From NCBI GenBank assembly GCA_902764545.1, contig CACWWC010000011.1, positions 1 through 45,694 of the forward strand: 45,694 bases of DNA, in the 5' to 3' direction. This stretch comes from an uncultured Erysipelotrichaceae bacterium (GTDB lineage: Bacteria; Bacillota_I; Bacilli_A; RF39; UBA660). The translations under genes and the position numbers were made by a program. The notes under the pieces were generated by a model. It ran no database searches and was not told the DNA's origin. It saw nothing but the letters and a program-made list of their open reading frames with translations. This document shows, in pieces, positions 1 to 18,192 of the stretch. How positions within the stretch are numbered: position 1 is the stretch's first letter; the number at the start of each line of letters is the position of its first letter.

Positions 1-2
1 AG

Positions 3-71
3 CCTATGGAGAAGAAAGAGAACTTTCTCAATGAAGTAGGAATTTTGGGCGGTGACGACCAAAGCGAATAA
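3..71 (+). CDS. C-terminal tail of an unidentified protein (partial)
   Basis: An open frame enters from the left edge and ends with TAA at 69-71, giving 22 residues rich in Glu, Asp and Gly with the end ILGGDDQSE. The hydrophilic, acidic end resembles the last residues of a soluble protein, but there is too little to name a family. It is the only frame of the three that stays open to a plausible stop before the AT-rich intergenic region. Confidence 0.4.
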   Translation, partial: PMEKKENFLNEVGILGGDDQSE

Positions 72-80
72 TTTATTTGA

Positions 81-167
81 AAATTATTCTTTTGTTCTTT
101 ACATTTGATATAAATATTTTTTATATTAAATGTAAATAATATTAAATTTATTGACAAAAGAATTATT
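81..167. repeat. Nested inverted repeats downstream of the first gene
   Basis: An inner stem pairs 99-113 with 121-135 (15 bp, one G-U) around a 7-base AT loop. An outer pair, 81-94 against 154-167 (AAATTATTCTTTTG against CAAAAGAATTATTT), matches in all but one position. The outer right arm overlaps the -35 box of the following promoter. It could end transcription of the upstream gene or act as an operator, but there is no clear T-tract, so the role is unknown. Confidence 0.35.
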
Positions 168-178
168 TGTAGTAGAAT
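151..178 (+). promoter_or_regulatory. Promoter upstream of the sugar cluster
   Basis: A perfect -35 TTGACA (151-156) is followed after 16 bases by TAGAAT (173-178). It would start transcription near 185, just before a short ORF with a good ribosome binding site, and could drive the manC-led cluster. Confidence 0.6.
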
Positions 179-206
179 AAAATTCAAGTTTAAAGAGGTG
201 ATTTTG

Positions 207-308
207 ATGTTTAATTTATTTTTAATTGTTTCTTTTAACTGTTTTTTTGACTTTATATTATTTTATAGATTTGATAAATCTATTTTTAATAGATTTTTGT
301 GTGAGTAA
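207..308 (+). CDS. Possible 33-residue hydrophobic leader ORF
   Basis: ATG at 207 lies 6 bases after GAGGTG (195-200) and directly behind the promoter at 151-178. The product is 33 residues, dominated by Phe, Leu and Ile with one charged stretch near the end. Inside it a short hairpin (ATAGATTT/AAATCTAT at about 265-283) is followed by TTTTT. It could be a real small membrane peptide or a translated leader of the cluster. No family is recognised, and chance is not excluded in such AT-rich DNA. Confidence 0.3.
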   Translation: MFNLFLIVSFNCFFDFILFYRFDKSIFNRFLCE

Positions 309-365
309 AATGGTTAGAAGAACTTTTTAGTTTTTTGGCCATTTTTTTGTAGGAGGTTGATTTTT

Positions 366-1619
366 ATGAAGTGTGTTCTTTTGTCTGGTGGAAAGGGGAA
401 AAGGTTGTGGCCTATTTCTACTGATGATGCTCCAAAACAGTTTGTGCATTTATTTAATGATAATGAAAGTATGCTAAAGAGGACATATGATGCTATTTCT
501 AATATAATTGATAGCCGTGATATTTTTATAGCAACTGGTGAGGAGTATCGTAATGATGTCCTTTCTGAAATTAATGACTTTTCAAATTTTATTTTTGAAC
601 CTTCTTATATTGGGACTTTTGGTGCAATATTAAATATTGCTGTATACTTTAGAGAAAAATTAGCTATTCCTTTGGATGAAGTTATTTCTATTATTCCTAT
701 TGATCATGATGTGAGTATTGATTTTTATAAAGATGTTTTTAAAGCGGAGGATGTATTAAAAAATATTAATTCAGATATTTGTTTAGTTGGAGTTAAGCCG
801 ACTTTTCCTTCAACTCAATATGGTTATATTTCTCATGATTCTGGTTATGTTACATCATTTTTTGAAAAGCCTGATTTTGATAAGGCTTTGCTTCTTATGA
901 ATAATGGTGCTTTATGGAATAGTGGGGTGGTAAATTTTAGACTTAAAAGGATTATTGATTTATCAAAAAAGTATCTTAGTTTTAAGAATTATGATGATTT
1001 TTATAAACAATATGATAGTTTGGTCCATACAAGTTTTGATTATGAGGTTCTTGAAAAGGAAGAGAGTATTTCATTAATAGCTACTGATTATACATGGAAT
1101 GATATTGGTACTTGGGATATTCTTGCTTCTAAGCTTTCGGTTAGTGATAAATATAATACTAATATTATTAATTTTGATAAAAAGAAAATAGTTAATGATG
1201 GTGTTTGTGATTCTATTATTATTAATAGTAAAGAAGGCATAAGACTTATTAAGAAAGATATTGATGATATGGTTTTTCGACAGTGGGGGTATTATAAGGT
1301 CCTTAATGTTTTCAATTCACCTTTTCTTCATATTAAGGTTAAGGAGCTGACTTTACTACCTAATAAAAATATAAGTTATCAGTATCATAAATATCGGAAT
1401 GAAGAATGGTTTGTTCTATCCGGCAATGGAGAGATTGTCATTAATGGTAAACACCTTAATATTACTGCTGGTGATGTTGTGACAGTTGATAAAATGAAAA
1501 ATCACTCTATAAGAGCGATTGATACTTTGAAAATTATTGAAGTTCAATATAGTGATGTTATGGTTGAAGAGGATGATATTGTTAGACTTGAATATGATTG
1601 GGATAAGATTATTGGATAG
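366..1619 (+). CDS. manC: Mannose-1-phosphate guanylyltransferase, ManC/CpsB type with C-terminal cupin
   Basis: This 417-residue protein has the nucleotidyltransferase signature LSGGKGKRLWP at residues 6-16 and PKQF at 23-26. After a Rossmann-like domain comes a C-terminal cupin (about residues 330-400, including QYHKYRNEEWFVLSG and AGDVVTV), as in bifunctional type II phosphomannose isomerase/GDP-mannose pyrophosphorylases. By family it would make GDP-mannose from GTP and mannose-1-phosphate in the cytoplasm, supplying the glycosyltransferases downstream. I chose ATG 366, 9 bases after AGGAGG (351-356), over the in-frame TTG at 357, which abuts the Shine-Dalgarno. It is slightly short for the family (about 450-480), and the exact sugar or nucleotide cannot be read from the sequence. 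Its last 11 bases overlap the convergent HAD gene. Confidence 0.85.
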   Translation: MKCVLLSGGKGKRLWPISTDDAPKQFVHLFNDNESMLKRTYDAISNIIDSRDIFIATGEEYRNDVLSEINDFSNFIFEPSYIGTFGAILNIAVYFREKLAIPLDEVISIIPIDHDVSIDFYKDVFKAEDVLKNINSDICLVGVKPTFPSTQYGYISHDSGYVTSFFEKPDFDKALLLMNNGALWNSGVVNFRLKRIIDLSKKYLSFKNYDDFYKQYDSLVHTSFDYEVLEKEESISLIATDYTWNDIGTWDILASKLSVSDKYNTNIINFDKKKIVNDGVCDSIIINSKEGIRLIKKDIDDMVFRQWGYYKVLNVFNSPFLHIKVKELTLLPNKNISYQYHKYRNEEWFVLSGNGEIVINGKHLNITAGDVVTVDKMKNHSIRAIDTLKIIEVQYSDVMVEEDDIVRLEYDWDKIIG

Positions 1620-2238
1620 TTTTTATTAATTCAGTAATTTCCTCTATTTTATTGAGATAGTATTTTGCTTCTATATTAGAACCAAAGCCATATTTACTCC
1701 AGATGAATGTAATCTGATTTGCTTCGGCTGATTTTTTATCATCTTCTTTATCTCCTACATAGCAAGTTTCATCTAATAAGAGATTATTTCTTGATATTAC
1801 TAAATTAATGTTTTCTGGTTTTGATTTATTAGTGTTTCCGATACATTCTATATCTTTAAATAAATGTTTTAATTTATAATGTTGTAGAAAGCTTTCAATA
1901 TATCCTTTTTGACAATTACTTACTATATATAAATTATGAGTTTTATTTAGTTTAATAAGTGTATCGATTGTATTTGGATATAGTTTTGCTCCATGTTTAG
2001 CAAGATACTTTGTTTCTTCTTGTTCACATTTAATCATATTGTTTTTGGCAGTTTCCGGATTACAATCTGGGAACAGGTATTTCATAAAAGAATCACTTGA
2101 TTTACCCATAAGTGCTAGTAGTTTATCACTTGTTGCATTTATACTTGGGAAAACACTTTTCCAGGCTTTAATTATTTCTTCTCTTGAGTCCCATAGGGTT
2201 CCATCAAGGTCAAAAATAATATTTTTAATTTTAGTCAT
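1609..2238 (-). CDS. HAD-superfamily phosphatase (phosphoglycolate phosphatase-like)
   Basis: The product is a 209-residue HAD subfamily IA hydrolase. Motif I is IIFDLDGTLWDS with nucleophile D10 and D12, motif II is YIVSNCQ, a lysine lies in NKSKPEN, and motif IV is CYVGDKEDDKKSA. The cap lies between motifs I and II. The start is ATG at 2238, read 6 bases after GAGGTG; the in-frame GTG at 2247 is part of that Shine-Dalgarno. It is the only gene of the cluster on the minus strand, and its stop overlaps the end of manC tail-to-tail by 11 bases. The substrate is unknown. A sugar phosphate made by the cluster is a fair guess, but housekeeping phosphatase activity is equally possible. Confidence 0.85.
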   Translation of the reverse strand: MTKIKNIIFDLDGTLWDSREEIIKAWKSVFPSINATSDKLLALMGKSSDSFMKYLFPDCNPETAKNNMIKCEQEETKYLAKHGAKLYPNTIDTLIKLNKTHNLYIVSNCQKGYIESFLQHYKLKHLFKDIECIGNTNKSKPENINLVISRNNLLLDETCYVGDKEDDKKSAEANQITFIWSKYGFGSNIEAKYYLNKIEEITELIKTIQ

Positions 2239-2292
2239 TTTTTTCACCTCATATTTATACTAACATAAAAATAAATAAAAAAGGAGTTTTAT

Positions 2293-3330
2293 ATGAAAAT
2301 AGTTGATTTTAGTACAATTACTAAAAAGGTTAATGTTAATGAATTCATTAAAAATGATACTGAGAGGTCTTTAGTTATTTATTCTATTACTTCTGTCAAA
2401 AAAAATAATTTATTTATGGATAATCCTAATTATGATTATTATAGTACTTTAGAAGTTACTAAAAAAAAGGTTAATATTGATAATTTATTTTCCAGTTTAG
2501 ATAATTATAAGAAGATTATTTCTATTGGTGGTGGAACAGCCACTGATATTGGTAAATATTTATCTTTTAAATTTAATATTAGGTTAATTTCAATTCCTAC
2601 AATGTTATCTACTAATGCTTATGCTACTTGTAAAGTTGCTTTAATAAATAATGGTAGAGTTGAATCTCTTGATGCTGTTACTCCTAGTGAAATATATATC
2701 GATAGTAAAATTTTAGTTAATTCTACTGAGAACAATTTGTATGGGTTAGTAGATATTTTTTCAATCTATACTGCTCTTAGGGATTGGGATTTAGCAATTA
2801 ATAATAATGGTGAAGATAAAAATTCCGAATATGATTCAGCTATGGATTTATTGAATTCTACTATTGAATATACTTTTACAAAAAGCTGTACTGAAATAGT
2901 AAATGATGTTGATTTTATTTATAAAATAATAGGTACTTCTGGTTTAATAACAAATAGATATGGAAGTGGAAAGCCGGAGAGCGGTTCTGAACACATTTTT
3001 GCAAAGGCTTTGGAGAAAGAGGTTAGTATTCCACATGCTGTTTCTGTTACAAATGGAATTATTTTAATGATTTTATCTCAAAATATTATAAATAATTCTG
3101 AAGAATTGTCAGATTCTGATTTAAAGGTTATATCTATTTTGAAAAAACTAAATATGTTTGATTTAAATTTAAAATATAACATTTCTTTTGAATTAATCAG
3201 CCAGGTTTATCTTAATCTTACTCCTAGAATAGACAGGTATTCTATTGTTGATTTAATTTATAACAATCAGGATATTAAAATGCAGGTTTTATCAAAGTAT
3301 AAGGAAATAATGAAAGGATTTTTAAAATAA
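2293..3330 (+). CDS. Glycerol-1-phosphate dehydrogenase-like (iron-containing ADH/AraM-type) enzyme
   Basis: The 345-residue protein has a dinucleotide-binding GGGTATDIGKY segment, SIPTMLSTNAYA, a GLVDIFSIYTALRDWDLA helix, SGKPESGSEHIFAKAL and IPHAVSVTNGI. The Asp of GLVD, the His of GSEH and the His of IPHA match the metal ligands of the glycerol-1-phosphate dehydrogenase/dehydroquinate synthase fold. By family it would reduce dihydroxyacetone phosphate to sn-glycerol-1-phosphate with NAD(P)H, but a related sugar-phosphate dehydrogenase is possible. ATG 2293 follows AAGGAG. The next gene starts one base after its stop, so the two are probably co-translated. A sugar-phosphate cyclase such as 2-deoxy-scyllo-inosose synthase fits less well. 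Confidence 0.7.
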   Translation: MKIVDFSTITKKVNVNEFIKNDTERSLVIYSITSVKKNNLFMDNPNYDYYSTLEVTKKKVNIDNLFSSLDNYKKIISIGGGTATDIGKYLSFKFNIRLISIPTMLSTNAYATCKVALINNGRVESLDAVTPSEIYIDSKILVNSTENNLYGLVDIFSIYTALRDWDLAINNNGEDKNSEYDSAMDLLNSTIEYTFTKSCTEIVNDVDFIYKIIGTSGLITNRYGSGKPESGSEHIFAKALEKEVSIPHAVSVTNGIILMILSQNIINNSEELSDSDLKVISILKKLNMFDLNLKYNISFELISQVYLNLTPRIDRYSIVDLIYNNQDIKMQVLSKYKEIMKGFLK

Positions 3331-3331
3331 T

Positions 3332-4219
3332 ATGGTTGAATATAATGGAAAAAAGTTAACTATTATGGCTTGCTCTAAATGTAATACTTCTTGTAAACAC
3401 TGTTATATTTCTTATAAAGGAAATAGGACTCCTGATGAGCTTATGAATTTAGTTATGAAGTTTAGGTACAAATATAAAATCGAAATTAATGGAGCGGAGA
3501 TACTAACAGATTTGGGTTATATAGAGAGTTATCCTTTAATTGGACAGGATTTTATTATGACTAATGGTATTGAAATTTATAAAAAACCTGAAGTATTAGA
3601 TTTTTTGATTTCTAGGGGTATAAAGCAGATCTTTATGTCATTTCATTTTGGTATTCATGATGATATTTCTAGTGTTGAAGTTGCTATGCTTGAGAGTAAT
3701 ATTAAAAATATTTTAAAAAGAAATTTAAAATTAAAACTTTATGTTACAGTTACTCAAAAGAATTACCAATATGTTCATGAAATTGTAGAAAAAGCTAGGA
3801 AATATGGTGCTGTTTCTGTTAGATTTACAAACTTTATTAAACAAGGTAATGCCATAGATTTAAGTGATAATAATATTCTTACCAAAAGTCAAATTAATGA
3901 TTTTTTAGATAGCGTTTCAAAAGAAAGAAAATTATATGATCAAGATGTTATGGACATTGAGAGATGTGGTAGTTTTGGTAAGGGTAACTCCTCAAAGTTT
4001 AATTGCTATGCAATTAATAATAATGTAATTCTTACACCAGATAATAACATTTATCCTTGCTTGTTTTTAGCAAAACCTGGGTATGAGATTGGTTATTATG
4101 ATGGTGATACATTGAATTTATATAATGAATATAACAATGATGGCAATGATTGCTTTGTTAGAGATTATTGCAATTATGGGGATGTTAAACAACTTAGGAA
4201 AAAATTGGAGGTGAAATAA
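3332..4219 (+). CDS. Radical SAM enzyme with C-terminal cysteine cluster
   Basis: The 295-residue protein has the radical SAM [4Fe-4S] motif C17-x3-C21-x2-C24 followed by Tyr-Ile. The C-terminal part holds further cysteines (NCYAIN, IYPCLFL, DCFVRDYCNYGD), suggesting a SPASM/twitch-like auxiliary cluster site. Such enzymes oxidise or rearrange small molecules or modify peptides; BtrN, an aminocyclitol dehydrogenase, is one small example. No precursor peptide was seen nearby, so a sugar or lipid substrate is more likely here. ATG 3332 lies just after the upstream stop with only a weak AAAGGA about 14 bases away, so it may depend on coupling. Its stop overlaps the next ATG by one base. Confidence 0.8.
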   Translation: MVEYNGKKLTIMACSKCNTSCKHCYISYKGNRTPDELMNLVMKFRYKYKIEINGAEILTDLGYIESYPLIGQDFIMTNGIEIYKKPEVLDFLISRGIKQIFMSFHFGIHDDISSVEVAMLESNIKNILKRNLKLKLYVTVTQKNYQYVHEIVEKARKYGAVSVRFTNFIKQGNAIDLSDNNILTKSQINDFLDSVSKERKLYDQDVMDIERCGSFGKGNSSKFNCYAINNNVILTPDNNIYPCLFLAKPGYEIGYYDGDTLNLYNEYNNDGNDCFVRDYCNYGDVKQLRKKLEVK

Positions 4220-5364
4220 TGAAGATAGCAATTTTAAGTCCTTGGACTGTGAGGTCTAACTCCGTTGGAGGAACTGAGAGATTTGTAATTGATCTTGCTG
4301 AAAGCTTTAATAACTCTGGTCATGAAGTTGATGTATATATGCTTTCTGGAAATAATTATTGCAAAAATAATATCAATTATATAAGTATTAATTTATTTGG
4401 AGAGAATAGAATTGTTGATGAATATTTTTTGAAACAAGAATTTAATGAATTTAATTCTTATGAGTCTTTTAAAGATTTAGCTTTAAGAATAGATAAGAGC
4501 ATTCCATTTGAAAAATATGATTTAGTTCATCTAAATTCTCAACTATTTTTAGAAGCTGGTAAAAATAATAAAAGAATCTTTACAATTCATACTAATCCGT
4601 TTGAATATAAACTTGATTGGGGAGAAAAATCTTTTTCTATTATGCTAGATATTATGAAGGATAATTATATTAGTACTGATACTCATTTTGTTGCTCCATC
4701 TATGTATTATGCAAATATTTATCATGAATTGGCGGGGATTAACATTGATTTTATTCCGCATGCAATTGATATTGAAAGACTTAATTCATTAAAGAGCAAA
4801 GAGTCTATTTATCGTGAAATGGGTATTGATCTTGATAAAAAGTTGATATTGCTTCCTAGTAGATTGGAGCCAATCCAAAAACAACCTATGTTATTCTTGA
4901 AAAGTTTTGCCTTACAAAGTGATGGTGTTAAAAATAAGTTTAAAATTATTTGTACTGGTGCTGACAAACAGTATGAGAAATTTAAAAATGAAATTATTGA
5001 TTTTTGCAGTATCAACAATATAGATATTTCTATTTGTAGGTTTGATCAAATGGCAGATGGATATAAGGCTTGTGATATTGTTGTTTTACCATCTAAGTCT
5101 GAAAGTTTTGGTTATTCTGCTTTGGAAGCTATTTCGTTGGGTATTGTTACAATTATTAATAATATACCAACTTATATGGAGATTGCTGAAGGTGCTAAAA
5201 ATTGTTATTCTTTTGATAATAATGTTGAATCTCTTGATTATTTGTTAAGAAATATTCTGGGTAATAGTTTTGATAGAGTTATACAAGAAAAAAAATGGAA
5301 GGATAGATATTCTATGAAGTTATTTTGCAGGAAGTATCTTGACTTGTACGATAAAAATGGTTAA
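4219..5364 (+). CDS. Glycosyltransferase family 4-type (GT-B fold)
   Basis: The 381-residue protein has the N-terminal loop WTVRSNSVGGTERFVIDLA, typical of GT4 acceptor domains. The C-terminal donor site is LPSKSESFGYSALEAISLG, an E-x7-E motif holding the sugar nucleotide. It would transfer a nucleotide-activated sugar, possibly GDP-mannose from ManC, to an unknown acceptor. The start ATG overlaps the preceding TAA by one base and lies after GGAGGTG. The downstream acetyltransferase begins inside its last codons. No membrane segment is seen, so it acts in the cytoplasm or at the inner membrane face. Confidence 0.85.
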   Translation: MKIAILSPWTVRSNSVGGTERFVIDLAESFNNSGHEVDVYMLSGNNYCKNNINYISINLFGENRIVDEYFLKQEFNEFNSYESFKDLALRIDKSIPFEKYDLVHLNSQLFLEAGKNNKRIFTIHTNPFEYKLDWGEKSFSIMLDIMKDNYISTDTHFVAPSMYYANIYHELAGINIDFIPHAIDIERLNSLKSKESIYREMGIDLDKKLILLPSRLEPIQKQPMLFLKSFALQSDGVKNKFKIICTGADKQYEKFKNEIIDFCSINNIDISICRFDQMADGYKACDIVVLPSKSESFGYSALEAISLGIVTIINNIPTYMEIAEGAKNCYSFDNNVESLDYLLRNILGNSFDRVIQEKKWKDRYSMKLFCRKYLDLYDKNG

Positions 5365-5833
5365 TGATATTTGGTTTACTAATTTAGAAAAAAATCCGGA
5401 ATATATAAATGAATATGTTAGATTTTGTAAAGAGGAGTGGAGTTCATATAGTGGTGAACTCTTAGAAAAGAAGATTAATGATCAGGTTAGAAGAATTATT
5501 AATGGTGAAGATGGAATTATTTATGTTGTTTTAATGTTATTAAAAAAGGAATTAATTGGTTTTATTTCATTGTTTGAATCAGATGGAGATTATTATAAGG
5601 AGTTGAGTCCTTGGTTTGCTACTTTCTATGTTAAAGAAAAATATAGAAATATGGGATATTCTACTTTGCTATTTCAAGAGTTAATTAATGAATCAATTAA
5701 TTTAGGGTATGATGAAGTTTTCTTTAGATCTTATATTGAAAATTATTATGATAGATTATATGGTGCGGAAGTAATTGATGAACTTGATAATGGTCAAAAA
5801 ATGTATAAAATTTCTCTATCAAAAAGAAAGTAG
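5357..5833 (+). CDS. GNAT-family N-acetyltransferase
   Basis: The 158-residue protein has the GNAT core: a beta strand with ELIGFISLFE, then FATFYVKEKYRNMGYSTLLFQELI. This corresponds to the acetyl-CoA pyrophosphate loop (usual form R/Q-x-x-G-x-G/A) with K-Y-R-N-M-G-Y-S here. A late strand EVFFRSYIENYYDRLYGAEVI follows. It probably acetylates an amino sugar of the product or provides self-protection. ATG 5357 overlaps the end of the glycosyltransferase by 8 bases. An alternative TTG at 5339 sits only 4 bases after AGGAAG, so the start is uncertain. Confidence 0.75.
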   Translation: MVNDIWFTNLEKNPEYINEYVRFCKEEWSSYSGELLEKKINDQVRRIINGEDGIIYVVLMLLKKELIGFISLFESDGDYYKELSPWFATFYVKEKYRNMGYSTLLFQELINESINLGYDEVFFRSYIENYYDRLYGAEVIDELDNGQKMYKISLSKRK

Positions 5834-5842
5834 GTGAAGTTT

Positions 5843-7117
5843 ATGAATGATAAAATAGGAATTATTGGGTTAGGATATGTTGGCGCTCCTCTTGCTTATT
5901 TAGCTGCGGCAAAAGGTTATAATGTTGTTGGTATTGATACTGATCAGTCTAAAATTGATTATATTAACAAACGTTTAAATGTTCCGAAGCAGTTAGTTAA
6001 TGACTATTCTTTAAATAAATATTCTTTAAAAGCTTTTTCTAATTATAGTAATATTAGGGATTCAAGCATTATAATAATTTGTGTTCCAACTCCTACACTT
6101 GATAATAAACCAGACTTATCTATATTAAATAGTGTTGTAAAGAGTATTTCAAATTATTTGAGAAATGGATGCCTATTAATTGTTGAGAGTACTATTGCAC
6201 CTGGGATGACTAAAAAATATGTTGAGGATAGTTTAAGCAAATTTAATTTAATACTTGGCACGGATTATCTACTTGCATATTGTCCTGAAAGAATTGATCC
6301 TGGAAACAGTCACTATTGGGTTGGAAATATTAATCGCGTTTGTGGTGCTACTTCTACTGATGCTTTAAATAAAGCCATTAATTTTTATAGTTCGATAATC
6401 GATGCTAAGATTATCTCAATGAATTCTATTGAGGAGGCTGAACTTGTTAAAGTTTGGGAAAACTCTATTAGAAATGTGGCTATTGCGCAGTCAAATTTAC
6501 TTGCTATGGTTTGTGATAAGAATAATCTTTCAGTAAAAAGTGTTATTAATGGGTTAAGGTCTAAGACTGAACAGTTTGTTCCCAATATTACATATCCTGG
6601 TATTGGCCCTGGAGGGCATTGTATTCCTGAAGATATTCACTATTTGATAGATGCAATTGATATGGATGTGGATGCAAGTTTGTTTTCTGAGTCTGTTAAA
6701 ATAAATGAATATATGCCTTTTTATGCAATGAATAAACTGAATACCTGTATTATTGATAATGGTGATAGTTTAACAGATTTAAAAATATTAGTTTTGGGAA
6801 TTAGTTATAAACCTAATTCTAAGGATACTAGAAAATCTCAAGCGAAAGTCTTGTATGATTTGCTTAACAATAGTAATAATTTAGTTTCATATTTTGATCC
6901 TATTGTAGATGGGATGGATGAATCTTTATCTGTGAATGTTTTAGATAATGAATTGTCTAAAAATGATGTTATTGTTATTGCTTGTTGTCATGATATATTT
7001 CTAAATATTGATTTTTCTAAATATAAGAATATTAAATATGTACTAGATTGTTGGAATAAGTACGATAAAAGCTTGCTTATTAAGAACAATATAAAATATA
7101 TTGGCATTGGTGAATAA
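5843..7117 (+). CDS. UDP-sugar (UDP-glucose/UDP-ManNAc-type) 6-dehydrogenase
   Basis: The 424-residue protein begins with the Rossmann motif GIIGLGYVGAPLA (G9-x-G11-x-x-G14). It continues with CVPTPT, VESTIAPGMT, YCPERIDPG, the KVWENSIRNVAIAQSN helix and the catalytic GPGGHCIPED with Cys260. This is the full UDP-glucose/GDP-mannose dehydrogenase layout (NAD-binding, central dimerisation, UDP-binding domains), and the CPERI..PG form resembles the UDP-N-acetyl-mannosamine dehydrogenase branch. It would oxidise C6 of a nucleotide sugar to a uronic acid with two NAD+. ATG 5843 follows TAGGTG (5831-5836) by 6 bases; an upstream GTG at 5834 is part of that ribosome binding site. Confidence 0.9.
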   Translation: MNDKIGIIGLGYVGAPLAYLAAAKGYNVVGIDTDQSKIDYINKRLNVPKQLVNDYSLNKYSLKAFSNYSNIRDSSIIIICVPTPTLDNKPDLSILNSVVKSISNYLRNGCLLIVESTIAPGMTKKYVEDSLSKFNLILGTDYLLAYCPERIDPGNSHYWVGNINRVCGATSTDALNKAINFYSSIIDAKIISMNSIEEAELVKVWENSIRNVAIAQSNLLAMVCDKNNLSVKSVINGLRSKTEQFVPNITYPGIGPGGHCIPEDIHYLIDAIDMDVDASLFSESVKINEYMPFYAMNKLNTCIIDNGDSLTDLKILVLGISYKPNSKDTRKSQAKVLYDLLNNSNNLVSYFDPIVDGMDESLSVNVLDNELSKNDVIVIACCHDIFLNIDFSKYKNIKYVLDCWNKYDKSLLIKNNIKYIGIGE

Positions 7118-7127
7118 GGGGGATTAT

Positions 7128-7910
7128 ATGATTGATTATCATGTTCATTCTAATATAAGTTATGACGGTAAGTCCTCTCCTCAAGAATATATTGATATAG
7201 CTCATTTAAAAGGAATTAAGGAGTTTACTTTTACTGAACATTTTGATTACTTAAATGGAGTTTCTAATATTAATTTAGATAATTATTATTCTTCTTTTAA
7301 GAATTTGACTATTCCTGATGATTTAAGTGTTAATTTTGGGGTGGAGGTTGGTTTTAATAAGCATTATAAGACTACTATTGAAAGTGCGATTAGTAAATAT
7401 CCTTTTGATTTTATAATTGGGTCTTCTCATTCAATTGGTGGGTTTGAAATTAATGATGAGTTATTTGACTCTAGATGTAGAAGTGATGTTTATTTAATGT
7501 ATTTTAATGAAATAATAAACAATATTAAATTATTTACAAACTATGATGTGTATGGTCATTTAGATCATATAGTAAGATATGGTAATTTTGATGATAATAT
7601 TTTTGATTATATAAACTATATAAATATTATTGATGAGATTCTTAAAGTAATTATCTCTAATGGGAAAGGGTTGGAAGTCAATTCTTCTGGATACAGGTTT
7701 AATAGTAATAATCCATATCCGTGCGTTGATATTTTAAAAAGATATAAAGAATTAGGTGGAGAGATTATTACTGTTGGTTCTGATGCTCATAAATATTGGG
7801 AGCTAGGACGTGATTTAGATATTGTTTATGAATTATTATTAAAATGTGGATTTGATTATATTAATATATTTCATAATAGAAATGTTTCATATGTAAAGAT
7901 AAAGAAGTAA
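7128..7910 (+). CDS. PHP-domain phosphatase, histidinol-phosphatase (HisK/HisJ)-like
   Basis: The 260-residue PHP-family phosphoesterase has metal-binding motif DYHVHSN at the start (H5, H7), TFTEHFD, IIGSSHSIGG, VYGHLDHIVRYG and the terminal TVGSDAHK. Together these supply the usual trinuclear metal site. The relatives dephosphorylate L-histidinol phosphate, but no other histidine gene is present. In this cluster a sugar or polyol phosphate is the likelier substrate. ATG 7128 follows AAGGGGGA; an upstream in-frame TTG at 7101 lies inside the previous gene and lacks a ribosome binding site. It is 9 bases ahead of the deacetylase. Confidence 0.8.
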   Translation: MIDYHVHSNISYDGKSSPQEYIDIAHLKGIKEFTFTEHFDYLNGVSNINLDNYYSSFKNLTIPDDLSVNFGVEVGFNKHYKTTIESAISKYPFDFIIGSSHSIGGFEINDELFDSRCRSDVYLMYFNEIINNIKLFTNYDVYGHLDHIVRYGNFDDNIFDYINYINIIDEILKVIISNGKGLEVNSSGYRFNSNNPYPCVDILKRYKELGGEIITVGSDAHKYWELGRDLDIVYELLLKCGFDYINIFHNRNVSYVKIKK

Positions 7911-7919
7911 GGAGTTTAT

Positions 7920-8810
7920 ATGAAAAACAATAAAATAATGTCACCTTTTTTTAAAATTAATTCATCAAATGAGTTAATATACTTAAATAGTTACAAGTTA
8001 TGTGATTTATCTCTATCATCTAGTGTTAATGATTACATTTTGGAGGCTGAGGGGGTTGTTTTCCCGGATATTAAAAAAGTTAAAAAGCCTAATACTGCAT
8101 TGATTTTAGAGCCGCATTCTGATGATTTTGCTTTATCTGCTCTTGCTTATACTTTGAATAATTGTAATTCTTTAGTTTTAAATGTTTTTTCAAAAACTAG
8201 TCTTGATTTCTTTACCTGGAAGGATTTAATTGATATAAATGCTTTTGAGTATGAAAAGTTAAGGCTTAGTGAGTCTTCTTTTGCGATAGAAAAACTTTTA
8301 AAAGAACGTTTTAAATCTCTTAGATATCAATCTATGCGTATTACTAAGGATAAAATACAAGATGTAAAAAAAAATATTTGTGATGCGATTATCAGTGCGT
8401 TAAAAAAAGATAAAACTATTGATAGAATACTAGTTCCGATGGGTGTTGGACTTCACCCTGATCATAAGATTGTTTTTGATGCTATTTTTGATAATTATTA
8501 TTTATTTTCTAATTACAAAATTATTCTATATCCTGAGTATCCTTATTCAAGATGTAAAAAGGCTTATAATGATAGGCTATCCTATATTAAAAATTTATTT
8601 TGTATTAAACCTATTATTGTAGATACCTCTAATAATTTAGAGACTATTGTTGATGTTATTTCGGTATTTAGATCACAGTTTGATGATATTAACAGAAGTC
8701 AAATGCTTGCAATCGTTAGAGAAGACTACAGAGCAATTGCTAGTGAATATAATGTTGATAATCTTTGTTGTGTTTATTATGAGATTGGTGGTGTTTTGAA
8801 TGAAAATTAG
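7920..8810 (+). CDS. PIG-L/LmbE-family N-acetylglucosaminyl deacetylase-like
   Basis: The 296-residue protein has the PIG-L zinc motif variant PHSDDF (residues 65-70; family PHPDD) and the distal GLHPDHK (H179-P-D-H182). These supply Asp and His ligands and the catalytic Asp. Members remove N-acetyl groups from GlcNAc-containing lipids or pseudodisaccharides, as in mycothiol, bacillithiol, teicoplanin and aminoglycoside pathways. About 55 residues precede the core, a longer N-terminus than usual. GAGTTTATATG gives a modest ribosome binding site. It overlaps the next glycosyltransferase by 11 bases. An acetyltransferase and a deacetylase in one cluster suggest control of an amino sugar's free amine. 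Confidence 0.8.
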   Translation: MKNNKIMSPFFKINSSNELIYLNSYKLCDLSLSSSVNDYILEAEGVVFPDIKKVKKPNTALILEPHSDDFALSALAYTLNNCNSLVLNVFSKTSLDFFTWKDLIDINAFEYEKLRLSESSFAIEKLLKERFKSLRYQSMRITKDKIQDVKKNICDAIISALKKDKTIDRILVPMGVGLHPDHKIVFDAIFDNYYLFSNYKIILYPEYPYSRCKKAYNDRLSYIKNLFCIKPIIVDTSNNLETIVDVISVFRSQFDDINRSQMLAIVREDYRAIASEYNVDNLCCVYYEIGGVLNEN

Positions 8811-9876
8811 CTTTTTTGATGATGAGCCTGAACTATATCCTCTTCAATATGGTGGAAAAGCTAGAACAATTATCAATTTGGCAAATGAATTTATGAAACA
8901 TCCAGATGTTGAAAGCGTAACTGTTTTAAGTAGAAGTATTTTTACTGATAAAGATGAATTTGAATTAAATGGCGTTAGATATGTTAAATTAGATGATTCT
9001 AATACAATTGAAAAAATTGTTTCAGAGGCTAATAATACTGATATATTAAATATTCATTGTTGTTCTTTTACTTTTCCTTTTTTGAAATGCAAAGCTAAAA
9101 AAATATATTTTATGCATGATGTTTTAATTGCAACTGCTGATAAGGGTAGCCATTTAGATAAATCTCTCGGTGGATATTTTGATTATGTTATGGCTCCTTC
9201 TCTGTTTGCTAAAAGTATATATGAAAAATATAGAAAAATTATTAATGGGGTTGTTCCTTGTGAGGTGATACCAAGGCATATTAATACAGATTTGTTTTTT
9301 ATTCCCAATGATTCATGCCCAATTGATTTTTTAAATACTATTAAAAAAAAGTATGATGAGGTATTCTTTTTTCCATCTAGACCTATTGCTGAAAAGGGTA
9401 GAAAATATTTGATTGAGTTTGCAAATTCTATATTAAATAAGAATATTTGTATAATTGGTCCTTTTGGGGACATGTCTGATTTACCTCTTAATTGTTTTGA
9501 CACGGGCTGGATTGAAAGTGAAAATCTAAAATATTATTATTCTATTTCTTCTGTCACACTTAATTTTTCTACTTTACCTGAGAGTTTTTCTCAAGTATGT
9601 ATTGAGTCTGTGTGTTGTGGGTGCCCTGTTGTTGCTTTTGCGGTTGGTAATGTTACAGATTTAGGTAAAATTACAAATGCTATTAAATTGTGTGATAGAA
9701 ACTTAGAGTCAATAAAAAAAACTGTTGATGAGGCACTTATTTTAAAACGAAATAATAATCAATTTTCTTTGGAAGCAAAAAAACTATTAGATTTATTTAG
9801 TAAGGACGTAATAATTGATCAATATATCAATTTTTATAAAAAAATATTGAAGGATGGTGAAAACTATGAAAAATAA
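8800..9876 (+). CDS. Second GT4-type glycosyltransferase
   Basis: The 358-residue GT-B protein has an N-terminal YPLQYGGKARTIINLANEF loop. The donor domain contains FPSRPIAEKGRKYLIEF and the terminal E-x7-E region STLPESFSQVCIESVCCGCPVVAF. It is only distantly similar to the first glycosyltransferase at 4219, so the two probably add different sugars. ATG 8800 lies 11 bases inside the deacetylase gene, with GGTGGTG upstream as ribosome binding site. Its own end is overlapped by the next radical SAM gene, continuing the coupled arrangement. Confidence 0.85.
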   Translation: MKISFFDDEPELYPLQYGGKARTIINLANEFMKHPDVESVTVLSRSIFTDKDEFELNGVRYVKLDDSNTIEKIVSEANNTDILNIHCCSFTFPFLKCKAKKIYFMHDVLIATADKGSHLDKSLGGYFDYVMAPSLFAKSIYEKYRKIINGVVPCEVIPRHINTDLFFIPNDSCPIDFLNTIKKKYDEVFFFPSRPIAEKGRKYLIEFANSILNKNICIIGPFGDMSDLPLNCFDTGWIESENLKYYYSISSVTLNFSTLPESFSQVCIESVCCGCPVVAFAVGNVTDLGKITNAIKLCDRNLESIKKTVDEALILKRNNNQFSLEAKKLLDLFSKDVIIDQYINFYKKILKDGENYEK

Positions 9877-11041
9877 ACCTAAAGCAATTTACCAGGATCA
9901 AAGAATTGCTGAGGAATGGTGTAATTTTAAGTGTGAGTATTGTGAGGGCTTTTGTCCTACTGAGTATTCTCTTAAACAGGATAAAGATGGGAATTTACAT
10001 GTTGCTGATGAGTGGTATGACATGGTCAATTCTTTTGATAATAATTTAAAAAAATATTTTGCCCATGGAAGAGGTTTTAAACAGTTTTATGAATTAGCTG
10101 ATAGTATTATGTCTTTATCTATGAAAGTTATGGATACTGATATTTTAAAAATATCTGGTGGAGAATTAACTGTTAATCCCAGACTATGTGATTTTGTTGA
10201 GTCCATTCATAATAATTATCCATCAATTCAAATATTAAGTAATGGCTCTAATATTAAGGATGAAGATATTGAAAGATATAAAAATATGGGAAATATTTCC
10301 TTTCAGATTTCTTTAGATGGTGTCAGCCCTGAGGCTAATTATTCTAAATCTCATAGCAGTTATATGACTAATAAGGTTGTAAGTACTATTGATAAATTGT
10401 TGGAAAATGGTATAGAGGTTGAGATTAATTGTGTATTAACAAAGTATAATACTGATAAGTTTTACGAATTTCTAGAGCACTTTTCAAATGCACGTAATTT
10501 AATGATTTTTCCAAGACCTATTAGAGGTGGTGCTAGAAAATTAATTGATTTTAATTCAGAGCATGTTGAAAAGTTTAGTAAATGTATAGATGAAAATTAT
10601 GATAAGTATAAAAACATTTTACCTTCTAAAGAATATTTTGATAGATTAATTGATATTATGAAAAATAATAAAAGAAATTATAAATGTTATGTTCCATTTT
10701 TTGTTCAAAGTATTGATGGGTATGGTAATTTTGAGATGTGTCCTATAGGATTGCAATATGATAATAAACCAAATATAGTTATTGGTGATGTTTCAGGGAA
10801 TTCAATTTTATGTAATTCTTCTTATGATGTTGAAAAAAAATATTCTTTATGTGAGTATTGTATTAATCAATATGAAATGTTAAATTTGTATGTAGATGGT
10901 ATAATTTCTTTAGATGAATTGAGGCGTGTCCCTTCTCTAAATAATGATACTGTTCTTTTACATATTAATGATATAAAAAGGGAGATTTGTCGTAATGAAG
11001 TTAAAAGAAGTAATAATAAAAAAGTATTGTCTAAGAGTTAA
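9866..11041 (+). CDS. Second radical SAM enzyme with SPASM-like C-terminal cysteines
   Basis: The 391-residue protein has C19-x3-C23-x2-C26 in EEWCNFKCEYCEGFCP, then KISGGELTVNP, matching the GGE SAM-contact motif. Later cysteines in YKCYVPFFVQ, FEMCPIGLQ and SLCEYCINQYE suggest an auxiliary iron-sulphur cluster. It is longer and clearly different from the enzyme at 3332. No small precursor peptide is visible beside it, so I infer a sugar or lipid intermediate as substrate. ATG 9866 follows GGTGA by 5 bases; an in-frame ATG at 9854 is possible. The kinase gene begins 47 bases before its stop. Confidence 0.8.
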   Translation: MKNKPKAIYQDQRIAEEWCNFKCEYCEGFCPTEYSLKQDKDGNLHVADEWYDMVNSFDNNLKKYFAHGRGFKQFYELADSIMSLSMKVMDTDILKISGGELTVNPRLCDFVESIHNNYPSIQILSNGSNIKDEDIERYKNMGNISFQISLDGVSPEANYSKSHSSYMTNKVVSTIDKLLENGIEVEINCVLTKYNTDKFYEFLEHFSNARNLMIFPRPIRGGARKLIDFNSEHVEKFSKCIDENYDKYKNILPSKEYFDRLIDIMKNNKRNYKCYVPFFVQSIDGYGNFEMCPIGLQYDNKPNIVIGDVSGNSILCNSSYDVEKKYSLCEYCINQYEMLNLYVDGIISLDELRRVPSLNNDTVLLHINDIKREICRNEVKRSNNKKVLSKS

Positions 11042-11780
11042 TAAAATTGAAATTAATGATGAGTCTACTGATGGGAATGTTTATATTGTTCATTCTAATG
11101 ATAATAAGTATGTATTAAAAGTTTATGATAGTTTTGAGCATGCTATTTCCATGGTTGATATTCATAATTATTTGAGCAATAATGATATTTCTGTTCCTAA
11201 AATATTAAAAAATTCTGATGATAAATTTATAACAAATTTTGATAAAAAATATCTTGTTTTATATTCTTTTTTACCTGGTGTTCAGTTACGTGATTATGTT
11301 TCTGATAATGATATTTATAAAAATATCGCGAAAAGTGTTAAAAGGATGCATGATGTAACTTCAGGTTTTAATAAGTTTGGTTTAGATTCAATTCCTTTTT
11401 TGGTAGATGATGATTTTGATAATTTTTCTCTTATACATTTTGATTTAACTAATTGTAATATATTTTATGATACTTCATTTTATAATTATATTGGTTTTAT
11501 TGATTTTGATGATGCGAAATATGGTCCATGTATTATTGATGTTGCTATTATTATTTCTTTGTTATTCTTTTCTAAAACAAGGGGAGTTAATAAAGAAGGA
11601 TTAAATATTTTTTTAAGAGAGTATTATAATCCTTTGGAGTTAGACAAAAATCTCCCTTTTGTAAAAAAGTATGCTTTACGATGGATTGATTATGTTATTG
11701 ATAATAATAATTTTGATTCTTCTACACAAGATAGTTTTATTATTAGAAGAAATTTAATCGATGAATTTTTTGAAGAATAA
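10995..11780 (+). CDS. APH/choline-kinase-family phosphotransferase
   Basis: The 261-residue kinase-like protein has a lysine in YVLKVYD (K42), the catalytic loop LIHFDLTNCNIF (H148, D150, N155) and GFIDFDDAKYGP with the metal-binding D170 and D172. It belongs to the aminoglycoside phosphotransferase/choline kinase/homoserine kinase group, so it phosphorylates a small hydroxylated molecule with ATP. In a cluster with two glycosyltransferases, a deacetylase and an acetyltransferase it could phosphorylate the product or an intermediate, or confer self-resistance. The start overlaps the radical SAM gene by 47 bases and follows GGGAGA. No terminator directly follows; the next element is a new promoter. 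Confidence 0.8.
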   Translation: MKLKEVIIKKYCLRVNKIEINDESTDGNVYIVHSNDNKYVLKVYDSFEHAISMVDIHNYLSNNDISVPKILKNSDDKFITNFDKKYLVLYSFLPGVQLRDYVSDNDIYKNIAKSVKRMHDVTSGFNKFGLDSIPFLVDDDFDNFSLIHFDLTNCNIFYDTSFYNYIGFIDFDDAKYGPCIIDVAIIISLLFFSKTRGVNKEGLNIFLREYYNPLELDKNLPFVKKYALRWIDYVIDNNNFDSSTQDSFIIRRNLIDEFFEE

Positions 11781-11781
11781 C

Positions 11782-11810
11782 TTGAAAAAATACGAAAAAT
11801 GTGGTATAAT
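11782..11810 (+). promoter_or_regulatory. Extended -10 promoter of the SPFH operon
   Basis: TTGAAA (11782-11787), a 17-base spacer and TATAAT (11805-11810) preceded by TGG form an extended -10 promoter. Transcription would begin at about 11817, exactly at the 5' edge of the structured leader. Confidence 0.8.
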
Positions 11811-11817
11811 TATATCG

Positions 11818-11914
11818 TTGAAAGGGAGTAGTTCCATCATATTGATGAAGTAACTCAACAGAACCGATAATAGGGTAAAATTATCTGGGTTATTTATAGA
11901 GGACAAGACTTTTA
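11818..11914 (+). promoter_or_regulatory. Candidate yybP-ykoY (Mn2+) riboswitch
   Basis: The leader begins AAAGGGAGTAG (11821-11831) and ends GACAAGACTTTT (11902-11913). Known yybP-ykoY aptamers carry AAAGG-GGAGUAG and CAAGA-CCUUU, the outer bases pairing as P1. Here both sides have lost one G:C pair in step (AAAG/CTTT), while GGAGTAG and CAAGA are intact. Between them are a CATCA/TGATG hairpin and an AACCGATAAT/ATTATCtGGGTT hairpin, consistent with a multi-helix junction. The 3' strand of P1 is also the 5' strand of the following terminator, so ligand binding should turn expression on. Identification is by recalled consensus, not by a covariance search. Confidence 0.65.
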
Positions 11915-11940
11915 TAGAAATATAGGAGTCTTGTTTTTTT
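11904..11940 (+). terminator. Riboswitch expression-platform terminator
   Basis: CAAGACTTTTATA (11904-11916) pairs with TATAGGAGTCTTG (11921-11933) over a GAAA loop and is followed by seven T. It is an intrinsic terminator in the leader, sharing its left arm with the aptamer P1 helix, so the two structures are mutually exclusive. Confidence 0.85.
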
Positions 11941-11962
11941 GATGGACTTTTAAGGAGGTATT

Positions 11963-12751
11963 ATGAAAGGTTTATTTAATAATGAAAAAATAAGAATATA
12001 TGGAGTTTGTGTTATTGCTGTTATTTGTTTAATAGCATTAAGCTTTACTACTGTAAGAAGTGGAGAGGTTGGTATTAGAGTTAGATTTGGTAAAGTTGTA
12101 AGTCACGAAGTTAAAGCTGGTATTAATATGAAGATACCTTTGATTGAAAAAATAGAAAAGATGAATGTTCGTGTACAGAAAACTGAAGTTAAAACAAACA
12201 GTTCTAGTAAGGATTTACAAGAAGTTGAGATGAGTTTAGCTGTTAACTATCAAATTGAAAGAGATAAGGCTACTAAACTTTATAAGAATGTTGGTATGAG
12301 TTATGATGATGTTGTACTTGAACCTGCTATTCAGGAAAGCATTAAGGCTGTTACTTCTAAATATACTGCTGAGGAATTAATTACTAATCGTAGTGAGGTT
12401 AGTGTTAAGTGCCAAGAGGAATTAAATAGAAAAGTTAATAAATATGGTATTAAGGTTAATGATTTTAATATAACAAACTTTAACTTTAGTAAGGAATTTA
12501 ATAAGGCTATTGAAGAAAAACAGGTTGCTGAACAAAAGGTTTTAACTGCTAAACAAGAACTTGAAAAAGAGCGTATTGAAGCTGAGAAGAAGATTGTTAA
12601 AGCTGAGGCTGAAAAACAAGCTAATGAATTGAAACAACAAAGTCTTACTGATAATATTATTAGGGAAAAGTTTATTGAAAAATGGAATGGTGAATTACCT
12701 AAAGTATCAGGAAGTAATAATATAATGGATGTATCTAGTATATTAGGTTAA
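11963..12751 (+). CDS. SPFH/prohibitin-family membrane protein
   Basis: The 262-residue protein has a single N-terminal membrane helix (about residues 12-28), then an SPFH/band-7 domain starting SGEVGIRVRFGKVV and running to about residue 180. A charged coiled coil rich in Glu, Lys and Ala (about 185-230) and a short polar tail follow. The layout resembles prohibitin/HflC proteins, which oligomerise at the membrane and organise proteases or membrane domains. It is the first gene after the riboswitch-like leader, with ATG after AAGGAGG, and is followed 23 bases later by a gene of unknown function. Neither FtsH nor NfeD is nearby. Confidence 0.85.
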   Translation: MKGLFNNEKIRIYGVCVIAVICLIALSFTTVRSGEVGIRVRFGKVVSHEVKAGINMKIPLIEKIEKMNVRVQKTEVKTNSSSKDLQEVEMSLAVNYQIERDKATKLYKNVGMSYDDVVLEPAIQESIKAVTSKYTAEELITNRSEVSVKCQEELNRKVNKYGIKVNDFNITNFNFSKEFNKAIEEKQVAEQKVLTAKQELEKERIEAEKKIVKAEAEKQANELKQQSLTDNIIREKFIEKWNGELPKVSGSNNIMDVSSILG

Positions 12752-13807: not shown

Positions 13808-15022
13808 ATGACTATAAAAGAGAAACTTATTATATTATCTGATAGTGCAAAATATGATGCATCGTGTTCATCTAGTGGTAGTAATAGATCTAATACAAAG
13901 GGTGGAATTGGTAATGCTGCAAGTTGTGGGATATGTCATTCTTTTACAAGTGATGGTAGATGTGTTTCACTTCTTAAAATATTAATGACTAACTGTTGTA
14001 TATTTGATTGCAAGTATTGTATTAATAGACGCAGTAATAATATTACTAGGGCTATATTTACACCAGAAGAGGTTTGCAGTATAACTATAAACTTTTATAG
14101 AAGGAATTATATTGAGGGATTGTTTTTAAGTTCTGGTATTATAAAAAATCCTGATTATACTATGGAGTTGTTAATTAAGACTATATATCTACTTAGAAAT
14201 AAATATAAATTTAATGGATATATTCATGCTAAGGCTATTCCTGGTGCAAGTAATTTTCTCCTTAAAAAACTAGGTAGTTTAGTAGATAGATTAAGTGCAA
14301 ATATTGAGTTACCTTCTAATAATAGTTTAAAGTTACTTGCACCTGATAAAAATACTAATAAAATTAATAACATTATGAGAACTATAAAAAATAATAGGAG
14401 TAGAAGCTTTACTCCAGCTGGTCAGAGTACTCAAATGATTATTGGTGGGAGTCCTGAGACTGATTTAGATATTTTAGGTAAAAGTGAATTTTTATATAAT
14501 AATTACGATTTAAAGAGAGTTTTTTATTCTGCATATATACCTATTAATAAGGATAAGTTATTACCAACTATAAATGTGCCTCCTTTAGTTCGAGAAAATA
14601 GACTATATCAAGCTGACTGGTTACTTAGATTTTATGGATACAAGGTTGATAATTTGCTTGATAAGAATAATCCTAATTTTAATATATTACTTGATCCTAA
14701 GGCAGATTGGGCTCTTAGACATATGAATGAATATCCTAAGGAAATAAATAAAGCTAGTTATTATGATTTGTTAAAGATTCCTGGAATTGGTCCTAAATCT
14801 GCTAAAAAGATAATTTCTTCTAGAAAATATTATAATCTTGAATTGAATGATTTAAAAAAAATGGGTATTTCTTTAAAAAGAGCAAAGTATTTTATTACTT
14901 GTAATGGCAAGTATTTTACTAGTATGAATATTTTTAATAAAAGCATTATTCAAAGTAATTTAGTTTTGGAAGATAAAACATTCACATCAAGTGGCGTTCA
15001 ATTAAGCTTGTTTAATGAATAG
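13808..15022 (+). CDS. Putative DNA modification/repair radical SAM protein (TIGR03916-like)
   Basis: The 404-residue protein begins KLIILSDSAKYDASCSSSG and carries the radical SAM cysteines C-x3-C-x2-C in NCCIFDCKYCINRRS. It continues with IEGLFLSSGI, HAKAIPGAS, RLSANIELPS, GQSTQMIIGG and a helix-hairpin-helix segment INKASYYDLLKIPGIGPKSAKKII near the end. This is the layout of the rSAM_link_UDG family, whose members sit beside or are fused with a uracil-DNA-glycosylase-like partner. The DNA-binding HhH supports a nucleic acid substrate; the chemistry is unknown. ATG 13808 follows GGTGAT. It overlaps the next gene by 8 bases. Confidence 0.88.
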   Translation: MTIKEKLIILSDSAKYDASCSSSGSNRSNTKGGIGNAASCGICHSFTSDGRCVSLLKILMTNCCIFDCKYCINRRSNNITRAIFTPEEVCSITINFYRRNYIEGLFLSSGIIKNPDYTMELLIKTIYLLRNKYKFNGYIHAKAIPGASNFLLKKLGSLVDRLSANIELPSNNSLKLLAPDKNTNKINNIMRTIKNNRSRSFTPAGQSTQMIIGGSPETDLDILGKSEFLYNNYDLKRVFYSAYIPINKDKLLPTINVPPLVRENRLYQADWLLRFYGYKVDNLLDKNNPNFNILLDPKADWALRHMNEYPKEINKASYYDLLKIPGIGPKSAKKIISSRKYYNLELNDLKKMGISLKRAKYFITCNGKYFTSMNIFNKSIIQSNLVLEDKTFTSSGVQLSLFNE

Positions 15023-15764
15023 TATTTATTTATACGATGGAGATTTTTCTTCATTAGTCAGTTTAATTGTTGAGTTAATAAATAAAGATATTGTTCCTGA
15101 TGGAATAAGGGTTATTAATAATGATCAGAAAGGTTTATTTGATTGTGAATTTAAGCTAGATACAAGGAATAAAAATAAGAATATTCAGTTTATAAAGAGT
15201 AAGTTATCTAAAAGGATTATTGGAAGTATATATTATGCTTTTTTATCAGAAGATGAAAATATTGGAAATACTATTTATTGGTTTATTAAATATGCGCTTA
15301 TACATAAAGATAAAATCTATTATATGAGGAGACTTGACTGTGTTAATAGAGTTATTAAATTATCCAGTTATGTTTCTAGAGAAACTCATAAATTAAAGGG
15401 ATTTTTAAGATTTAAACAGATGAAGAATGATTTTTTATATGCTGTTATAGCACCTACTAATAATGTATTAGGTCTACTTGGCAATCATTTTAAGAAGAGG
15501 TTAAGTGGGGAAAACTTTGTTATTTATGATCAAATGAGAAGAATTTACTTGATATATAATCAGATTAATATTATTTATGTTCGTGATGATGATTTAGTAA
15601 AAAAAGATATTATTATAAGTAGAGATGAAGAGTTTGTTGAAGATTTATGGAAGAGTTTCTTTAAGAGTGTTTCTATTGATGAAAGAGAAAATTTGAAATG
15701 TCAGATGAAGTTTATGCCTAAAAAGTATTGGGCTAATATGATTGAAATGGAGGATAAATTATGA
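15015..15764 (+). CDS. TIGR03915/DUF4130 putative DNA repair protein
   Basis: The 249-residue protein begins NSIYLYDGDFSSLVSLI and includes SYVSRETHKLKGFLRFKQM, LYAVIAPTNNVLGLLGNHFKKRL and a final CQMKFMPKKYWANMIEM. These are hallmarks of the DUF4130 family, the regular partner of the radical SAM protein just upstream. In many bacteria this domain is fused to a family of uracil-DNA glycosylases; here it stands alone, with no glycosylase domain. ATG 15015 lies within the previous gene, and the TGA overlaps the next ATG (ATGA), so all three genes are translationally coupled. Confidence 0.85.
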   Translation: MNSIYLYDGDFSSLVSLIVELINKDIVPDGIRVINNDQKGLFDCEFKLDTRNKNKNIQFIKSKLSKRIIGSIYYAFLSEDENIGNTIYWFIKYALIHKDKIYYMRRLDCVNRVIKLSSYVSRETHKLKGFLRFKQMKNDFLYAVIAPTNNVLGLLGNHFKKRLSGENFVIYDQMRRIYLIYNQINIIYVRDDDLVKKDIIISRDEEFVEDLWKSFFKSVSIDERENLKCQMKFMPKKYWANMIEMEDKL

Positions 15765-18169: not shown

Positions 18170-18192
18170 AGTTTGTTGTGAGGAGTGATTAT

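Follow-up and report, generated by a model that had tools for sequence, protein, structure and literature searches.

The window analysed here is a complete contig of 45,694 nucleotides (C11, G000:C11; GenBank CACWWC010000011.1, assembly GCA_902764545.1) from an uncultured Erysipelotrichaceae bacterium, whose genome comprises 1.57 Mb in 45 contigs and is 93.5% complete. Near its left end lie twelve densely packed genes for sugar enzymes, two radical S-adenosylmethionine (SAM) enzymes (rSAM1 and rSAM2) and an APH-like kinase. Nine of these genes recur in identical order and orientation in one other genome, and the unit is a nine-gene core accompanied by variable sugar-supply genes. We tentatively read this cassette, with confidence a little short of even, as a horizontally exchanged nine-gene unit whose product would be a small, soluble metabolite derived from sugar, in all likelihood a short glycoside with one or two sugar residues. 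The enzymes are of known kinds in an unmatched arrangement; no published description of such a cluster was found in the open literature, which is weak evidence of novelty as subscription papers fell mostly outside the scope.

The nine-gene core and its second copy

The genome_contigs collection (84,980 species) was scanned with an alignment of rSAM1 and two relatives at 40% identity, and 97 stretches matched, 11 of which encode a relative of the query. One of them, locus L020 (SVAH01000019.1, Bacillota bacterium isolate SIG197; genome G655), carries nine of the twelve genes (Table 1). The other three, for a ManC-like enzyme, a HAD phosphatase and a PHP phosphatase, are missing from the L020 cassette, so we treat them as variable supply genes and not as members of the conserved unit, in which the initial annotation had included them. 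All twelve open reading frames (ORFs) were confirmed at 357-11780 of the window, eleven on the plus strand and the HAD gene on the minus strand, with intergenic spacing of -47 to +45 bases. The L020 core genes overlap or stand at most 3 bases apart, and there the family 4 glycosyltransferase GT4-A and the GNAT acyltransferase form a single ORF of 536 residues, which points to a direct functional link between the two. The cluster begins about 365 bases from the left end of its contig, and further leftward genes are possible in the window genome; both flanks of the cassette are visible in L020.

The cassette is rare in the genome samples searched (family, class, phylum and genus, which overlap). 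The AraM-like dehydrogenase was found in one of 145 genomes of the family, and rSAM2 in one of 395 genomes of the class, one of 392 of the phylum and one of 39 of the genus, the sole match each time being the window's own genome. Within the family of G655, rSAM2 occurs in one of 243 genomes, G655 itself. For rSAM1, five of the 392 phylum genomes matched: the window's own, two at 40-41% identity in a different gene context, and two weak ones (L018 and L019) that are alike merely as generic radical SAM enzymes and are no cassette relatives. No cassette relatives were found in viral_contigs, nor with the rSAM2 query among phages and plasmids. The AraM-like query matched eight records (3 from phages, 5 from plasmids) with 23-31% identity over 46-58% of its length, and inspection by eye of ORFs or annotation in four of these eight found no cassette.

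Our sole measure of kinship between the two genomes is the housekeeping protein ParC, for which the window genome is 56% identical to G655 and 78% identical to its congeners. Several cassette proteins are at least as similar across both genomes (rSAM1 65%, rSAM2 61%), nearly all relatives lack the cassette (38 of the 39 genomes of the genus have no rSAM2), and the flanks differ, with uvrA and Ham1 to the left of the L020 cassette and an SPFH gene to the right of the window's. Together, these comparisons favour horizontal transfer, in which the nine core genes would have moved as a unit between genomes. In two congeners (L035 and L036) the neighbours of the SPFH gene indicate that the right-hand flank is native and that the upstream genes differ; a clean empty insertion site was not found in either.

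The other ten rSAM1 relatives (L021-L030), about 40% identical to the window's rSAM1, all lie in one different conserved operon of uncultured Bacilli (for example L028:3232-14500; L016 and L017). All ten loci combine rSAM1 and an APH-like kinase with a class I/II aminotransferase, a pair of ATP-grasp ligases and an ABC transporter of the amino-acid type; nine continue with another APH-like kinase, then a Nudix hydrolase and a HAD protein of the Cof type (L025 stops at a contig end). In L017, which by its length is the same contig as L028, Pfam supports the labels of three kinds of protein (aminotransferase, ATP-grasp and phosphorylase-like), and the remaining labels were given by eye. This operon appears to be an undescribed cluster for a metabolite derived from amino acids. 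APH-like kinases accompany rSAM1 in both contexts; no close similarity was detected between the window's kinase and those of the operon. Directly after the L020 cassette (L020:16644-16978) stand fragments of the operon's GNAT (46% over 39 amino acids) and Nudix (64% over 69 amino acids) genes. Given these remnants, it appears that an exchange put the sugar cassette where the ATP-grasp/APH operon had been, or beside it.

Table 1 Genes of the cluster in the window, with amino acid identity to the L020 copy and family match (E value unless stated otherwise).
Product	Position	Strand	Status	Identity to L020	Family match
ManC-like sugar-1-phosphate nucleotidyltransferase with cupin/phosphomannose isomerase (PMI)-like C terminus	366..1619	+	accessory	not found in L020	Pfam NTP_transferase PF00483, 1.9e-27; cupin PF01050, 4.4e-17
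HAD-IA phosphatase	1609..2247	-	accessory	absent from L020	Pfam HAD_2, 3.2e-28
AraM/G1PDH-like dehydrogenase, altered substrate site	2293..3330	+	core	58% (L020:7917-8957)	Pfam Fe-ADH_2/G1PDH-like, 6.5e-16
rSAM1, SPASM/twitch-type radical SAM enzyme	3332..4219	+	core	65%	Pfam sub-threshold, 0.003; CX3CX2C; fold
GT4-A glycosyltransferase	4219..5364	+	core; fused with GNAT in L020	59%	GT4, 1.3e-16
GNAT acyltransferase	5357..5833	+	core	43%	Pfam GNAT, 7.9e-8
UDP-HexNAc-type nucleotide-sugar 6-dehydrogenase	5834..7117	+	core	57%	TIGR03026, 310.8 bits, above cut-off
HisJ-type PHP phosphatase	7128..7910	+	accessory	absent from L020	HisJ-type PHP, 3.7e-28
PIG-L sugar N-deacetylase	7920..8810	+	core	54%	PIG-L, 6.2e-5, Pfam sub-threshold
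GT4-B glycosyltransferase	8800..9876	+	core	56%	GT4, 2.3e-9
rSAM2, twitch/SPASM-like radical SAM enzyme	9866..11041	+	core	61%	radical SAM, 1.3e-13
APH-like small-molecule kinase	10995..11780	+	core	44%	APH, 3.7e-15

Enzymes, predicted product and competing explanations

Families were assigned by Pfam and NCBIfam profile scans of the twelve proteins. The gene classes of the initial annotation agree with these scans within limits: the ManC-like enzyme (174.5 bits against TIGR01479, GMP-PMI; equivalog cut-off 372.95) and the AraM-like dehydrogenase fall far under equivalog cut-offs, and Pfam alone leaves rSAM1 and PIG-L below threshold, their classes being backed by relatives and folds. By sequence comparison, the UDP-sugar dehydrogenase is nearer to UDP-N-acetylmannosamine (ManNAc)/N-acetylhexosamine (HexNAc) 6-dehydrogenases than to UDP-glucose dehydrogenases, scoring 224 bits for the UDP-ManNAc type versus 104 for TuaD, with PDB matches to 4r16 (2.5e-54) and Cap5O (1.7e-45). 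The L020 orthologue of PIG-L lies above the gathering score, and the motifs EPH[SP]DD and HPDH are intact in both copies. Both glycosyltransferases contain E-x7-E, which we take to be the GT4 motif. The best NCBIfam match of GT4-A is BshA (46.5 bits in the window and 59.1 in L020; cut-off 273.7), and MshA reaches 38.8 and 43.3 bits, respectively (cut-off 462.5). HxDxxxxN and a later D-x-D, presumably the kinase motifs, are kept in the APH-like protein. Searching the PDB by sequence gave nothing usable for PIG-L or APH.

In rSAM1, the CX3CX2C motif (C17/C21/C24) is invariant in all 12 aligned sequences, as are C225 and C243, two cysteines of an auxiliary site at the C-terminal end; C274 is nearly invariant. 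Its structure model (predicted local distance difference test, pLDDT, 70) matches SkfB best (Z 16.6, root-mean-square deviation 3.5, 250 residues aligned), with SuiB, PqqE, viperin, anSME, BlsE and others as further neighbours, and the modelled partial TIM barrel together with CX3CX2C confirms a SPASM/twitch fold. rSAM2 scores 57.6 bits against a twitch subfamily model (cut-off 170). Its identity as a viperin was rejected (NCBIfam viperin, 46.9 bits; cut-off 180), as was a role in anti-phage defence, for which PADLOC, run on ten of the twelve proteins (GNAT and PHP left out), gave just prokaryotic-viperin cross-matches to rSAM2 (57.6 and 37.3 bits).

From these families we predict a glycoside that most likely contains a hexosamine unmasked by PIG-L and a uronic acid for which the UDP-sugar dehydrogenase would be the source; the pathway below is predicted in every substrate, in the order of its steps and in its product. 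UDP-HexNAc would be partly oxidised to UDP-HexNAc-uronate, after which the two retaining GT4 enzymes would place sugars on a small acceptor, in the manner of BshA and MshA; this acceptor may be the product of the AraM-like dehydrogenase. PIG-L would then take off an N-acetyl group. An amine would be re-acylated by the GNAT, which the fusion links to GT4-A. The two SPASM/twitch enzymes would oxidise, epimerise or rearrange sugar carbons, and the APH-like kinase would phosphorylate an intermediate or mask the product for self-protection. In the window, ManC, HAD and PHP could provide a further sugar nucleotide and remove phosphate. In favour of a soluble glycoside, genes for membrane proteins, carrier-lipid enzymes and peptides are all missing from the unit, the capsule locus of the relative is separate, and for the PIG-L model Foldseek ranked the teicoplanin/A40926 deacetylases Orf2 and Dbv21 at the top (E 1.6e-5 to 6.4e-5) and diacetylchitobiose deacetylases next.

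Several observations weigh against this soluble glycoside. Two examples of the cassette are available, one of them at a contig end, and neither an exporter nor a resistance pump is present in the cassette. Its GC content and GC at third codon positions (GC3) resemble the remaining window, and nothing in its composition points to a recent transfer. The fold neighbours of rSAM1 do not tell its substrate, SPASM/twitch being common to peptide-modifying enzymes. The PIG-L model is of low confidence (mean pLDDT 54), and the family assignment alone was taken from it. ManC, HisJ-type PHP and UDP-HexNAc dehydrogenases are typical of surface-polysaccharide loci, and each of the two genomes has one gene for a PF02397 initiating transferase, on a contig other than that of the cassette.

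The last two observations equally speak for the main rival reading, surface-glycan decoration, which we regard as possible but on balance improbable. Here, the cassette would make an unusual sugar or side chain for attachment to a polymer, capsular or of teichoic type, that the separate capsule locus builds. In G655 the PF02397 gene belongs to a capsule-type locus (contig C25), where chain-length-regulator and tyrosine-kinase-type proteins, flippase-like and polymerase-like membrane proteins and glycosyltransferases were recognized from the ORFs by eye, without hidden Markov models (HMMs). In the window genome, the contig breaks just left of manC, and the PF02397 gene lies on C22 beside a glycosyltransferase that runs off the contig end. 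C22 (L044:1-1043) and C11 (window 1-71) both terminate next to sugar genes, and since both end there, a physical link between them, and thereby to a capsule locus, is conceivable.

In L020 such a link is excluded within the 19.8 kb read: the cassette has uvrA-Ham1 on one side and, on the other, a gene that Pfam does not match, and no capsule gene, flippase and polymerase included, was seen among the ORFs. The cassette itself encodes neither a flippase nor a carrier-lipid enzyme, nor any transmembrane protein, which also argues against surface-glycan decoration. Among the twelve proteins, no PF02397 initiating transferase was found (for the window genome, within the limit set by the left contig end), and neither a flippase nor a polymerase is indicated by a Pfam match or a transmembrane stretch, as the initial annotation had stated; the highest 19-residue Kyte-Doolittle mean is 1.91, compared with 3.02 for a permease control. 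The cluster likewise holds no transporter, transmembrane helix, precursor peptide or aminotransferase. The same annotation had proposed a stand-alone sugar-product cluster and had pointed to relatives with these genes inside a wzx/wzy locus as the observation that would count against it. The sole relative, L020, carries its core genes apart from the capsule-type locus on another contig, which supports the proposal, and we reject a capsule locus as the frame of the core genes.

A glycolipid pathway, with an AraM-like enzyme that makes sn-glycerol-1-phosphate (G1P) for glycosylation into a membrane glycolipid, seems unlikely to us. The dehydrogenase belongs to the fold family of AraM and G1P dehydrogenase (G1PDH), and its nearest solved relatives include G1P dehydrogenases. 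D154, H234 and H248, which we take to be the Asp/His/His metal triad, are invariant alongside four AraM-family sequences, with the second His shifted by two positions in the profile alignment with PDB sequences, and GT4-A has weak matches to lipid glycosyltransferases such as IagA/BgsA. Set against this, the enzyme scores 94.4 bits with the G1PDH equivalog NF002022 (cut-off 413) and has a divergent N terminus, and no prenyl- or lipid acyltransferase was found in the cluster. S-x-D-G is a substrate motif of the AraM/G1PDH family. Its Asp is Asn108 in both cassette copies and Asp in all eight family rows compared (four loci and four printed PDB rows from six matched chains, two of these rows being nearly the same protein); both copies have S-T-N-A for the motif, with HxxSVxNG in place of the family's HGxxVG. 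The low score and the substitution make G1P doubtful as the product, and with it the glycerol-1-phosphate glycolipid first suggested for this cluster; the substrate is probably other than dihydroxyacetone phosphate.

We also reject, as improbable, a glycosylated product akin to ribosomally synthesized and post-translationally modified peptides, in which the two SPASM/twitch enzymes would modify a peptide and the glycosyltransferases glycosylate it: both radical SAM enzymes lie close to SkfB in sequence, and the fold of rSAM1 is close to those of SkfB, SuiB and PqqE, but neither locus has a plausible precursor gene (one elsewhere in the genome being possible), with no plausible ORF of at least 20 amino acids in window 1-12000 and, in L020, a tightly packed core and a 593-base downstream gap filled by the GNAT and Nudix fragments and short random-looking ORFs.

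Other features of the window

Upstream of the SPFH gene, at 11805-11960 on the plus strand, lies a conserved leader with a terminator-like hairpin, which is a candidate riboswitch. Copies were aligned from L035 (two) and L036 (one), and the RNAalifold consensus of four sequences contains three pairs with two-sided changes; Rfam gave no match save one at chance level on the opposite strand. A divergent Cpn60/GroEL-like protein of 505 amino acids (15761-17278, plus strand) directly follows a radical SAM-HHH/DUF4130 pair (13808-15764). Around parE- and parC-like genes are three related small ORFs with CFLQRYxYG-like ends (18178-18699, 22515-22994 and 22979-23521); no match was found for 18178-18696 in Pfam and NCBIfam, or for 22979-23518 in Pfam.

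Two mTERF-like ORFs occupy 41591-43155 on the minus strand, the longer matching PF02536 (E 1e-44). Of 40 relatives, 22 carry them, almost all from this genus, whereas they occur in none of 14 control genomes. Prokaryotic mTERF-like proteins have been published as pTERF (PMC11417379).

Comparison with known systems

SPASM/twitch radical SAM enzymes are known chiefly from peptides, and sugar examples are few. At a more specific level, and with low confidence, the cassette may represent a hitherto undescribed kind of small-molecule cluster in uncultured Bacilli, mobile and recombined with the likewise undescribed rSAM/ATP-grasp/APH operon. Its product would be an amino-uronic pseudo-oligosaccharide, on which two different SPASM/twitch enzymes would act, with sugar and not peptide as their substrate, beside an AraM-like enzyme of new specificity. 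If so, the radical SAM pair in a sugar cassette would offer a tractable system for new radical chemistry on carbohydrates, in uncultured small-genome hosts not known as producers. Should the cassette decorate a surface polymer instead, it would still mark an unusual sugar.

With Wzx/Wzy capsule and O-antigen loci, the cluster shares a ManC-like enzyme, a UDP-HexNAc dehydrogenase and GT4 enzymes. It differs in the absence of initiating transferase, flippase, polymerase and chain-length genes, in the addition of two radical SAM enzymes and a kinase, and in that the relative's capsule locus is separate.

The 2-deoxystreptamine aminoglycoside clusters (butirosin, neomycin) have in common with ours a GT4 enzyme, a PIG-L deacetylase, radical SAM tailoring and an APH-like kinase. 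At the level of enzyme class, sugar N-deacetylase, GT4 and radical SAM proteins are present here. In contrast, the cluster would supply a UDP-uronate and lacks both a 2-deoxy-scyllo-inosose (DOI) synthase-type enzyme and an aminotransferase: in the twelve cluster proteins, to which the search was confined, Pfam detected neither a DOI synthase-type enzyme nor a pyridoxal phosphate-dependent aminotransferase, the sole weak DHQ_synthase cross-match (E 0.009) being to the AraM-like enzyme. A classical aminoglycoside pathway, to which the enzyme mix had initially been likened, is thus not supported by these twelve genes, and with no aminotransferase an amine could come from N-deacetylation alone.

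Mycothiol and bacillithiol biosynthesis (MshA-MshB-MshD and BshA-BshB) follows a logic in which an N-acetylglucosamine glycoside of a small acceptor is made, deacetylated and re-acylated. The cluster shares with these pathways a GT4 enzyme, a PIG-L deacetylase and a GNAT, with weak HMM matches to BshA and BshB1 that lie far under the equivalog cut-offs. It differs from them in that no cysteine ligase (MshC/BshC) family was found among its twelve proteins, and in its two radical SAM enzymes, UDP-sugar dehydrogenase, second glycosyltransferase and kinase.

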